A stretch of 50,965 nucleotides of DNA. Origin: Caballeronia concitans. GTDB taxonomy: Bacteria > Pseudomonadota > Gammaproteobacteria > Burkholderiales > Burkholderiaceae. The notes beneath the pieces are model-generated. The model ran no database searches, was not told where the DNA came from, and saw only the letters and a program-made list of their open reading frames with translations. The stretch is taken from contig NZ_FCNV02000020.1 in assembly GCF_001544615.1 (NCBI RefSeq), positions 1-50,965 of the forward strand. The letters run 5' to 3'. Positions 39,857-42,491 of the stretch are shown piece by piece; position 1 is the first letter of the stretch, and each line of letters starts with the position of its first letter. Position numbers and translations under genes: made by a program.

Positions 39857-41353
39857 TCAGAAGTCGCTGTCGAGGCCGTCTTGCACTTGCTCGGCGGCGC
39901 GCAGCACGGCGCGCGCCTTGTTCTCCGTCTCTTGCCATTCGGACTCGGGCACCGAATCCGCGACGACGCCCGCCGCCGCCTGCACATACAGATTGCCTTT
40001 GTGGATGAGACCGGTGCGGATCGCGATGGCCAGATCCATCTCGCCGCTGAACGACAGATAACCGACCGCGCCACCGTACAGTCCGCGCTTGACCGGCTCG
40101 AGTTCGTCGATCAGTTCCATTGCGCGGACTTTCGGCGCACCGGACAGCGTGCCGGCGGGGAACGTCGCGCGCAGCACGTCGAAGTTGTTCATACCGGACT
40201 TGAGCTTTCCTTCCACCGAACTCACGATGTGCTGAACGTGCGAGTACTTTTCGATGATCATCTTGTCCGTGACCGCGACCGAACCCGTGTCCGCGATCCG
40301 GCCGACGTCGTTGCGCGCGAGGTCGATCAGCATCACGTGTTCGGCAATTTCCTTCGGATCGTTCAGCAATTCGGTGGCAAGTTCGGCGTCGCGCTCGGGC
40401 GTGTTGCCGCGCGGACGGGTGCCGGCGAGCGGACGAATCGTGACGATGCGGTCCTCGGCGCGCTTCTCCTGACGCACGAGAATTTCGGGCGACGCGCCGA
40501 CCACATGAACATCGCCGCCGAAGTTGTAGTAATACATGTACGGCGACGGATTGAGCGACCGCAACGCGCGATACAGCGAAAGCGGGTTGTCGCGGAACGG
40601 CTTGATGAGCCGCTGACCGACCTGCACCTGCATCAGTTCGCCCGCCGCGATGTATTCCTTCGCGCGGCGCACGGCGTTCAGATAGTCCGCTTTCGCGAAC
40701 TCGCGATAGGTCTCCGTGCGCACGCTCGCGGACGTCACCGGCGGCTGGACGGTCGTGCGCAGCCGCGCGCGCAGTTCGCGCAGACGATGCTTCGCCTTCG
40801 CATACGCTTCGGGCTTCGTCGGATCGGCGTAGACGATGAGATACAGCTTGCCGGCGAGGTTGTCGATGACCGCGACTTCTTCCGTCAGCAGCAGCTGGAT
40901 GTCGGGCAGACCGAGATCGTCGGGCGGCGCGGTGTCCGCCAGCTTTTTCTCGATGTAGCGCACCGCGTCATAACCGAAATAGCCCGCAAGACCGCCGCAG
41001 AAACGCGGCAAGCCCGGGCGCAGCGCCACCTTGAAACGCTTCTGGAATCGCTCGATGAACGCGAGCGGATCGCCTTCGTCGGTTTCGGTCACGTTGCCGT
41101 CGGTGACGACTTGCGACACGCCGTTCTGCACGCGCACCATTGTGCGGGCCGGCAAGCCGATGAACGAATAGCGCCCGAAGCGCTCGCCGCCGACTACCGA
41201 TTCGAGCAAGAACGAGTTCGCGCCGTTGCGCTCGGATTGCGCGAGTTTCAGATAAAGCGACAGCGGGGTTTCGAGGTCGGCGAGCGCTTCGGCGATCAGC
41301 GGAATGCGGTTGTAGCCTTCATTCGCCAGCGATTGGAATTCGAGTTCGGTCAT
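39857..41353 (-). CDS. trpE: Anthranilate synthase component I
   Basis: A 498-residue chorismate-utilising enzyme. The N-terminal feedback region contains [18 protein letters not shown], of the LLES type that contacts inhibitory tryptophan. The C-terminal catalytic part has [45 protein letters not shown] and [18 protein letters not shown]. It starts at ATG 41353 with no strong ribosome site. About 310 bp of leader, including a predicted attenuator, separates it from trpL and gph. Confidence 0.97.
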
Positions 41354-41601
41354 GGTGCGATCCTTGATCGACGCGCGCTGTTATGAGAGAACGCGGCATC
41401 GGGAAGAACGTGGGCGCTGCGATCGGCTTGTTTCTCGCGTTGTCGGCGGATGCGCCCGGGCCGCGCGGATGCGGTTCGGGCGATCGGAGCATGCACGGCC
41501 GTGCGTTGCGTGCGGCAAACATCACGCAACGCAGCGCATGCCGAAGCAACGCTCGGTGTACGACAGTTCAACGGAAACGGCGCAGGAATGCGCAGCGAAA
41601 C
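41354..41601. other. Post-attenuator leader of trpE, no gene seen
   Basis: About 250 bp between the attenuator U-run and the trpE ATG. Short frames on both strands lack ribosome sites and family resemblance. The motif GCTTCGGCAT, which forms part of the terminator 3' arm, occurs a second time at about 41533-41542. That copy could offer an alternative pairing partner for the terminator 5' arm. Confidence 0.4.
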
Positions 41602-41672
41602 AAAAAACGGATGCCGAAGCGAGTGCAAGAGAATGCGACATGGCTTCAGCGTACCTCGGGCGAGGTTAGCGC
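41602..41672 (-). promoter_or_regulatory. Predicted trp transcription attenuator
   Basis: Two mutually exclusive RNA hairpins lie immediately after the Trp codons of trpL. Antiterminator: GCG-CTA-ACCTC (41672-41662) pairs with GAGGT-A-CGC (41657-41649) around GCCC. Its 5' arm contains the trpL stop codon TAA. Terminator: GCTGAAGC (41650-41643) pairs with GCTTCGGC (41620-41613), extended by GG/CC, and is followed by CCG and six Us (41607-41602). They share bases around 41649-41655. A ribosome stalled at the Trp codons leaves the antiterminator free. A ribosome at the stop codon covers its 5' arm and allows the terminator. Confidence 0.65.
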
Positions 41673-41740
41673 GACCAGCGACGCCAGGGCCAGGCTCCCC
41701 GGTCGATGCTGCTCAGACTCCGTTTTCTGTTGAGAAACAT
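41666..41740 (-). CDS. trpL: Trp leader peptide
   Basis: A 24-residue frame with ATG at 41740 and TAA at 41668-41666. It begins MFLNRKRSLSSIDRGA and ends WPWRRWSR. Three Trp codons fall within the last eight residues, in an organism where Trp is rare. The ATG is 10 nt after the gph stop (TAG). No good Shine-Dalgarno is visible, so translation may depend on reinitiation by ribosomes leaving gph, or on a weak site. The stop codon lies inside the antiterminator arm, as expected for attenuation control. There is no homology claim; the call rests on Trp content, position and the downstream hairpins. Confidence 0.68.
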   Translation of the reverse strand: MFLNRKRSLSSIDRGAWPWRRWSR

Positions 41741-41750
41741 GAGAGATGGA

Positions 41751-42491
41751 CTATTCAGTCAGTGTGGTGTCGGGCGGCGCCAGTGTCGCGGCGATCGCCA
41801 TGGCTGCGGTTCGCAGCGTGGAAACTATACCATCGGACTTCACCGATTGCACAGCTTTCCCGTGGTTGTAACCGTACGGCACGGTGAGCGTCGCCATGCC
41901 CGCCGCGCGGCCCGCGAGCGCGTCGTTTTCCGAATCTCCGACCGCCACCGTTTCGCGCGGCAGCACGTCGAGACGGTCGCAGGCGGTGAGCATCGGGAGC
42001 GGATCGGGCTTCTTCAGCGCGACGGAATCGCCACCGAGAATCACCTTGAAATAGTGCGCGACGCCGAAGTGCGACAGCAGTTCCACCGCGAAGCGATGCG
42101 GCTTGTTCGTCACGCACGCGAGCGCGATGCCGAGTTCGCGCATCGCTTCAAGGCCTTCTTTCACCTCGGGAAAGAGCGTCGAATGCTTGCCGTTGATCTT
42201 CGCGTATTCGCTTTGATAGGTGGCGAGCGCGTCGTCGAACTGCGCAGTGGCTTGGGGATGCGGCAGCCGGGCGGCCAGCACGCTGCGAATCAGATTTTCC
42301 GAGCCCTTGCCGATGTAGCCCACGACTTCATCGCGCGTGACGGGCGGCTCCACGCCGATGCGCGCGAGCATGCCGTTGAGCGCGGCGACGAAGTCGTCGG
42401 CGGTATCGACCATGGTGCCGTCCAGATCGATGATGGCCGCGCGGATTGGCCGGACGGAGAAGACGGGCAGCGCCGTCGTGGTGTCGTTCAT
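41751..42491 (-). CDS. gph: Phosphoglycolate phosphatase
   Basis: A 246-residue HAD hydrolase removing phosphate from 2-phosphoglycolate. Motif I is [11 protein letters not shown] with both aspartates, motif II CVTNKP, motif III lysine in LKKPDPLPM and motif [17 protein letters not shown]. The ATG at 42491 has GGGAG upstream and overlaps the rpe stop by 4 bp. The pairing rpe-gph-trpE is common in proteobacteria. The 3' end contains an ATA isoleucine codon within a possible -10 element (41824-41829). Confidence 0.94.
41824..41829 (-). promoter_or_regulatory. Candidate internal promoter (-10) for trpL-trpE inside gph
   Basis: TATAGT on the minus strand within the last 30 codons of gph would start RNA near 41817, about 77 nt before trpL. 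It uses a rare ATA codon. The -35 is only a partial match. Confidence 0.4.

Follow-up and report, generated by a model that had tools for sequence, protein, structure and literature searches.

A probable ribosome-mediated trp attenuator in front of trpE of Caballeronia concitans, with a predicted long-range helix between leader codons and terminator tail

The minus strand of the window (i.e., the whole 50,965-nucleotide stretch of Caballeronia concitans DNA that was analysed) carries gph (42491..41751) followed by trpE (39857..41353), trpG and trpD, and the TrpE encoded there shares 98% identity with the protein of Burkholderia sp. 8Y and 97% with its counterpart in Caballeronia grimmiae. The gap between gph and trpE, the putative regulated gene, contains a trpL-like leader ORF (MFLNRKRSLSSIDRGAWPWRRWSR; 41740..41666) that, like all leader elements described below, lies on the minus strand. 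An initial annotation, made from the letters of this DNA alone, had proposed a 24-codon frame ending in WPWRRWSR at this place, and this frame was present, with a TAA stop codon and with three Trp codons among its 24 (codons 17, 19 and 22, at 41692-41690, 41686-41684 and 41677-41675, respectively), directly 5' of trpE-trpG-trpD. The 10-nt distance from the gph stop to the leader ATG was measured at the same value, and the stretch of about 250 nt said to remain before trpE was found to be 248 nt (41354-41601) from the U-tract described below to the trpE ATG. Across 126 window-type regions the leader stop and trpE are separated by 183-459 nt (median 284), and 68 Cupriavidus-type regions have gaps of 72-242 nt (median 102). 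Absence of a Shine-Dalgarno sequence, also claimed earlier, was evident from anti-Shine-Dalgarno pairing energies, which were +0.4 at the leader start as opposed to -3.8 at the trpE start of the window and which reached -4 kcal/mol or lower at only 2 of 159 distinct leader starts compared with 121 of 159 trpE starts from the same loci. The folding z-score of the leader was -4.55, with none of 200 shuffles equally stable. A second TrpE-like chorismate-binding gene, noted at G000:C18:675593-676348 (41% identity over query residues 224-484), is probably another member of this family.

The leader ORF keeps its position in 84 of the 85 close sequences (the window and L003-L086), the exception (L015) having an N in its start codon, and related leaders were found in 201 of 237 upstream regions of the order, a set that may include repeats of one species and from which five loci had been left out because no trpE start could be recognised where one was expected (L163, L238, L239, L242 and L243). 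The initial annotation had named loss of the Trp codons or hairpins from relatives as an observation that would count against an attenuator; this comparison was run and did not refute it. The leader motif was AWPWRR in the window family, mostly AWLWRRW in Cupriavidus/Ralstonia-like sequences and AWPWRK/Q in Comamonadaceae-like sequences. Among close sequences, conservation began at the leader ATG and sequence 5' of the ATG was variable. Spacing between an A-tract near the leader start and the first Trp codon had the same residue modulo 3 in 160 of 164 leaders and was nearly always 29 or 32 nt. A 24-mer, GACCGGGGAGCCTGGCCCTGGCGT (leader nt 37-60, window 41704-41681), was identical in two Comamonadaceae-like loci (L097 and L109), which exceeds the conservation that Trp codons alone require. 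Several further upstream regions carried different Trp-rich ORFs (e.g., WRSWRWWCW); nine Alcaligenaceae-like loci (L103-L105, L107, L108, L110, L111, L224 and L226) had very different Trp-rich leaders (WRSWRWWCW, WRWWRLSSGWR), and four of these nine (L107, L108, L224 and L226) contained GATGGTATAGT within gph.

A covariance model of the element matched exactly once in 32 of the 60 family genomes, always just 5' of trpE. Five of these 32 matches were weak (E 1e-6 to 3e-4), and many of these genomes had also fed the model. In a sample of the class the model matched 1 of 143 genomes, namely the window's own, under search filters strict enough that weak matches may be lost. An Rfam search of the window at gathering thresholds gave no match to Trp_leader (which we take to be RF00513), and an E-value search of 41300-42000 gave three chance matches to other families and none to Trp_leader. 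Profiles of Pfam and NCBIfam assigned the window peptide and three relatives to no family, short peptides being poor scorers with such profiles. The window leader shares the functional idea of Rfam Trp_leader and of Pfam Leader_Trp (presumably PF08255) but not a profile match to either.

An extended -10 promoter-like element (TGGTATAGT; 41824..41832), which the initial annotation did not contain, was noted within the gph codons GAT GGT ATA GTT (D-G-I-V). The exact 9-mer was found 5' of 176 of the 201 leaders, its end a median of 82 nt ahead of the leader ATG; of the remaining leaders six had TGCTATAGT, five had TGCTACACT, one had TGGTATAAT and 13 had none of these. Of the 85 Ile codons that trpD, trpG, trpE, gph and rpe have in the window, the one within TGGTATAGT is the only ATA. 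Six loci have no Trp-rich ORF at all (L087, L096, L203, L205, L209 and L220); in two of them, L096 and L203, the gph motif could be located, and its Ile codon there is ATC or ATT. A simple sigma-70 scan listed no promoter in the region. Conservation of the element suggests that the leader has its promoter within the last part of gph, with a start expected near 41817, about 77 nt ahead of the leader AUG. A leaderless transcript in the window lineage, which was raised by the sharp onset of conservation at the ATG, was set aside because the conserved TGGTATAGT ends 46-139 nt upstream.

Three hairpins were recognised in the leader RNA. Hairpin P1 (1:2; 41668..41719) holds the Trp codons. Hairpin P2, at the 2:3 position (41653..41666), is formed by ACCTC (41666-41662) and GAGGT (41657-41653). 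The 3:4 hairpin (41613..41650) has an 8-bp stem, GCTGAAGC/GCTTCGGC, that ends 5 nt (ATCCG) before a U6 tract (41602..41607). In the MFE fold the core 3:4 stem and ACCTC/GAGGT were both present and did not overlap. The leader stop codon had been placed in the 5' arm of a hairpin, which is so for its last A but not for the rest of the codon, and an overlapping alternative hairpin ending in U6 had been described, which is so only where the terminator is lengthened by two weak base pairs, formed by GG of GAGGT and the CC ahead of G-U6; this extension competes with P2, and the core 3:4 stem has no such overlap. In part of the Cupriavidus/Ralstonia-like sequences a textbook-like helix, TGGCAATC/GATTGCTG, overlapped the terminator arm. 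The spacer between the 3:4 stem and the U-tract was at least 3 nt in 69 of 81 window-type regions and in 26 of 58 Cupriavidus-type regions (one of these 26, with 30 nt, being a folding failure), and was 0-2 nt in the other 32 of the latter; a terminator scan that allowed spacers of 0-2 nt did not list the 3:4/U6 pair of the window. Directly 3' of the U-tract lies a second hairpin, GCGCATTCCTGCGC then CGTTTCCGTT (41593-41580), a possible tandem terminator or pause, and a GCTGCGC...GCGC motif was seen by eye at the same place in many relatives.

Codons 4-7 of the leader are predicted to pair with the terminator tail CCGUUUUUUG in a long-range helix (P0), a new element that was missing from the initial annotation. 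The 5' arm of P0, AACAGAAAACGGA, spans leader nt 10-22 (41719..41731; conserved core nt 12-21), and the 3' arm, TCCGTTTTTTGTT, is the terminator tail (41599..41611; conserved core CCGTTTTTTG, 41610-41601). In the MFE fold leader nt 10-21 were paired with CCGUUUUUUGUU, closing the whole leader. When the 1444 ATGs of the window were ranked by the score of such a helix, P0 came sixth, which is not convincing for a single sequence, and the case for P0 therefore rests on comparison. After seven leaders (the Comamonadaceae-like leaders and L225) were set apart, P0 of at least 7 bp with a U-rich tail was found in 175 of 194 leaders from some 40 genera (44 labels, with overlap possible). A strict form of the helix, A6C (or AGAAAAC) with GU6 (or GUUUUCU), was seen in 146 leaders, and of the 48 outside this form 29 kept a helix of at least 7 bp and 19 did not (L086, L124, L130, L131, L133, L134, L165, L171, L181, L197, L210, L211 and L213-L219). 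One of these 19, L124, is so counted since the test for a U-rich tail misses its tail (TTTCCAA/TTGGAAA). Ten of the leaders without P0 (L086, L210, L211 and L213-L219), all from the window family, kept the Trp leader peptide but had neither an A-rich arm nor a U-rich tail; attenuation may proceed by another route in these strains or may have decayed.

Paired changes were noted in all four helices. In an alignment of 58 of 60 picked sequences (L086 and L223 were left out and the tail of L045 is incomplete), 15 of 42 pairs had changed on both sides compared with 5.1 ± 1.5 in shuffled and 3-8 in slid controls, with contributions from P0, P1 (4 of 18 pairs, 94.9% of cells paired), P2 (3 of 5 pairs, 84-90% of cells paired) and 3:4 (5 of the seven pairs counted, 100% of cells paired). 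For P0, column pair 12-171 was C-G in 29 of these sequences, U-A in 24, U-G in one and other in three. The P0 pairs of nt 12-21 were kept, as opposed to the outer pairs, 11-172 being unpaired in 27 of 57 rows and 10-173 in 11 of 57. At pair 14-169, G-U was present in eight rows and A-C in none, a bias that suggests an RNA in the trpE sense. The conserved helix ended exactly one base past U6; position +7 was paired in 98% compared with 74% expected (and in 97% compared with 77%), and position +8 in 47% compared with 47% (and in 39% compared with 28%). Among the 146 strict leaders, the pair flanking the A/U run (i.e., the base before the A-run with the base after the U-run) was C-G in 78, U-A in 64, A-U in one, U-G in one and mismatched in two. 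Parsimony on a trpE DNA tree (120 rows, 118 scored) required at least 11 changes of the leader base and 10 of the tail base, and a sign test on five independent pairs from supported branches gave four in the same direction, none in the opposite direction and one without difference (p 0.125), a result that is not significant on its own because there were only five pairs. When arms were swapped between leaders, the cognate score of 1571 exceeded both the swapped mean (1316.6 ± 22.4) and the maximum of 10,000 permutations (1404; 79 distinct 5' arms). Both arms had been rewritten together in some leaders. The most heavily altered arms are confined to a single genus each: CAAGAAACGG/CCGTTTCTTG in L206 and L208 (same genus) and ACAACAAACG/CGTTTGTTGT in L095, L178 and L186 (one genus). 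Others were TTTCCAA/TTGGAAA in L112 and L124 (one genus), ATAACAAACG/TGTTTGTTAT in L092 and AACAGAAAACGG/CCGTTTTCTGTT in L138; CAATAAA/TTTATTG was also seen.

Effects of ribosome position on the leader fold were modelled in 98 sequences by blocking the footprint of a ribosome at Trp17, Trp19, Trp22 or the stop codon or by blocking none. P2 had a mean probability of 0.92-0.97 when no ribosome was placed and when the ribosome stood at Trp17 or Trp19, of 0.01 at Trp22 and of 0.00 at the stop codon, a pattern in line with attenuation and in agreement with the earlier claim that a ribosome reaching the stop codon blocks ACCTC/GAGGT pairing. Corresponding means for the 3:4 core were 0.94 without a ribosome, 0.88 at Trp17, 0.92 at Trp19, 0.76 at Trp22 and 0.91 at the stop codon. 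In the window, the core fell to 0.28 with the ribosome at Trp17, through a pairing longer than ACCTC/GAGGT, and was 1.00 in the other four states. The GG:CC extension had means of 0.27 with the ribosome at the last Trp codon, 0.18 at the stop codon (0.00 in the window) and 0.02 without a ribosome. Sequestration of the terminator 5' arm by ACCTC:GAGGT, as proposed in the initial annotation, is thus consistent with competition from the weak extension but not with the core stem, which coexists with P2 in the MFE fold and persists in the modelled means. The geometry of classical attenuation, claimed at the same time, was similarly recovered in part, i.e., in the window at Trp17 and in the overlapping helix of some Cupriavidus-like sequences, but not in most states, where the core stays. 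An antiterminator that is shared across the window lineage and breaks the 3:4 core was accordingly rejected as a general feature (mean core at least 0.76). The 3:4 core forms in most modelled states, so that a classical exclusive switch is only a tentative reading.

In a second set of models (80 window-type and 37 Cupriavidus-type sequences), the four states that left the first codons free gave P0 a mean probability of 0.85-0.98 (window: 0.99); with these codons covered, by a ribosome either queued or initiating, it was 0.00-0.05. Dependence of P0 itself on Trp was considered and rejected, P0 being predicted in every modelled state unless codons 1-8 were covered. P0 would therefore not itself be the Trp sensor, because at equilibrium it forms with or without a Trp stall.

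Conservation, synteny and helices together give good support to the class assigned in the initial annotation, and the element in front of trpE is very probably a ribosome-mediated trp attenuator, from which we infer both Trp dependence and termination at U6. The full proposal, a trp attenuator in which P0 aids termination or seals the released RNA, appears likely. Transcription would begin at the promoter within the end of gph, a ribosome would read the Trp-rich ORF without a Shine-Dalgarno sequence, and its position at the Trp codons or the stop codon would set whether P2 forms and hence how the terminator region is completed, so that RNA polymerase would either stop at U6 or continue into trpEGD. 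Pairing of codons 4-7 with the CCG-UUUUUU-N tail would close a four-way junction of P0, P1, P2 and 3:4. The gap between 3:4 and the U-tract is occupied by C-G or CCG pairing with the leader in P0, which would thereby supply G-C pairs adjoining the U-tract; the 3:4 stem stops 3-5 nt too soon to provide them. In the released RNA, P0 would lock the region of the leader start to the 3' end. The most likely function of P0, as judged from these features, is to seal both the base of the terminator and the released RNA. Bridging of the spacer would not be its only role, because P0 was mostly kept in the Cupriavidus-like group despite the 32 canonical spacers there, which argues that sealing of the released RNA is at least part of it. 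It is doubtful that P0 goes further and makes the terminator a bipartite one, with the first leader codons as the 5' half of the stem base and the CCG-U6 tail as the 3' half. Termination would then need ribosome-free first codons and would be prevented by a freshly initiating ribosome or by one queued behind a ribosome at Trp17, the stretch from the start codon to the stall leaving room for about one footprint, and a CCG:CGG toehold would let the A-tract pull the U-tract from the RNA-DNA hybrid. An attenuator of this kind would sense ribosome loading as well as Trp stalling.

Three other accounts were weighed against the proposal that P0 seals terminator and released RNA. Plain textbook attenuation, with P0 as a bystander and with P2, or longer pairing around it, as the antiterminator, acting either by depriving a lengthened terminator (GG...CC-G-U6) of its GG or by opening the 3:4 stem, is favoured by covariation of P2, by the rise of the GG:CC extension when a ribosome over the stop region opens P2 and by the loss of the 3:4 core from the window at Trp17. 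However, the mean core at Trp17 across 98 sequences remained high, L161 and L162 were seen on inspection to have no GG beside the stem for an extension, and covariation of P0 needs a selected role; P0 as a mere bystander is thus rather unlikely. Somewhat better, although still tentative, is the possibility that P0 acts outside termination, closing the released leader RNA, stopping leader translation and guarding the 3' end of what would be a stable small RNA that might, like Sinorhizobium rnTrpL, have its own targets. This account overlaps the sealing half of the main proposal and agrees with the end of the conserved helix, which is close to the expected end of a terminated RNA, with prediction of P0 in modelled states that leave codons 1-8 free, with retention of P0 where the spacer is canonical and with the activity of rnTrpL in trans, as described in PMC7298713, but it leaves the spacer of 3-5 nt unexplained.

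The remaining account takes P0 for a by-product, in which A-rich early codons for initiation without a Shine-Dalgarno sequence and U-tracts for termination match trivially. Most P0 pairs are indeed A-U in most species, and A-rich ORF starts are common, yet paired changes away from A/U (CAAGAAACGG/CCGTTTCTTG, ACAACAAACG/CGTTTGTTGT, CAATAAA/TTTATTG and TTTCCAA/TTGGAAA), exchange of C-G for U-A at the flanking pair and the outcome of the arm swap test all stand against it and make a trivial match very improbable.

P0 is a natural and evolutionarily tested case of the question whether A-tract:U-tract pairing matters for intrinsic termination or for RNA stability. The textbook picture of attenuation is not known to us to include pairing, supported by covariation, of leader codons with the U-tract of the terminator. 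No description of the Burkholderia-type leader or of P0 was found in the open-access papers searched; attenuator surveys by Merino/Yanofsky and by Vitreschak/Gelfand may have predicted beta-proteobacterial trp leaders. P0 also offers a reason for the conserved codons 4-7 (Asn-Lys-Lys-Arg), the remainder of the leader being variable in the sister group. A functional leader peptide was considered in this connection and set aside: sister-group residues between the A-tract and EAWLWRRW vary, so that P1 and P0 are probably the better reason why these residues do not change in the window lineage, and conservation of a leader peptide need not mean peptide function.

The E. coli trp attenuator follows a scheme of pairings 1:2, 2:3 and 3:4, and the leaders trpL, thrL, pheL and hisL share with the window a short ORF that is rich in the regulating codon and precedes the first gene of the pathway, a terminator hairpin and a U-tract. 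The stem abuts the U-tract in all four of these attenuators (spacer 0) as opposed to the spacer of 5 nt in the window, and no leader-to-tail helix comparable to P0 was found in any of the four, the best being 8 bp with wobbles compared with 13 bp for P0. The window further differs from E. coli in its start without a Shine-Dalgarno sequence, in the promoter-like site inside the upstream gene and in a 3:4 core that is compatible with the hairpin at the 2:3 position. The leader would thus work like the E. coli trp attenuator but is a variant rather than a proven member of that type, because abutment of stem and U-tract and exclusive 2:3/3:4 stems are not clear-cut here. Bidirectional intrinsic terminators, as treated in PMC4824070, resemble P0 in having an A-rich stretch complementary to the U-tract, although their A-tract lies directly before the hairpin and that of the window lies more than 100 nt upstream, within an ORF and with two helices between; the same text calls the effect of A-tract:U-tract pairing on intrinsic terminators controversial.

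In six Comamonadaceae-like leaders (L097, L100, L101, L102, L106 and L109) a -10-like TACACT precedes the ATG by just 6-9 nt, a distance suggestive of leaderless mRNAs, and neither a U-rich tail nor an A-rich arm was found in these leaders. In Sinorhizobium meliloti, according to PMC7298713, the rnTrpL transcript begins at the AUG, encodes a 14-aa peptide and is active in trans, as opposed to the start predicted from the promoter-like site of the window, some 77 nt before the AUG. Like the window, S. meliloti has a Trp leader ORF without a Shine-Dalgarno sequence before trpE, and the attenuator RNA is released (PMC7298713), so that among the systems compared rnTrpL is the nearest in behaviour to the leader described here.
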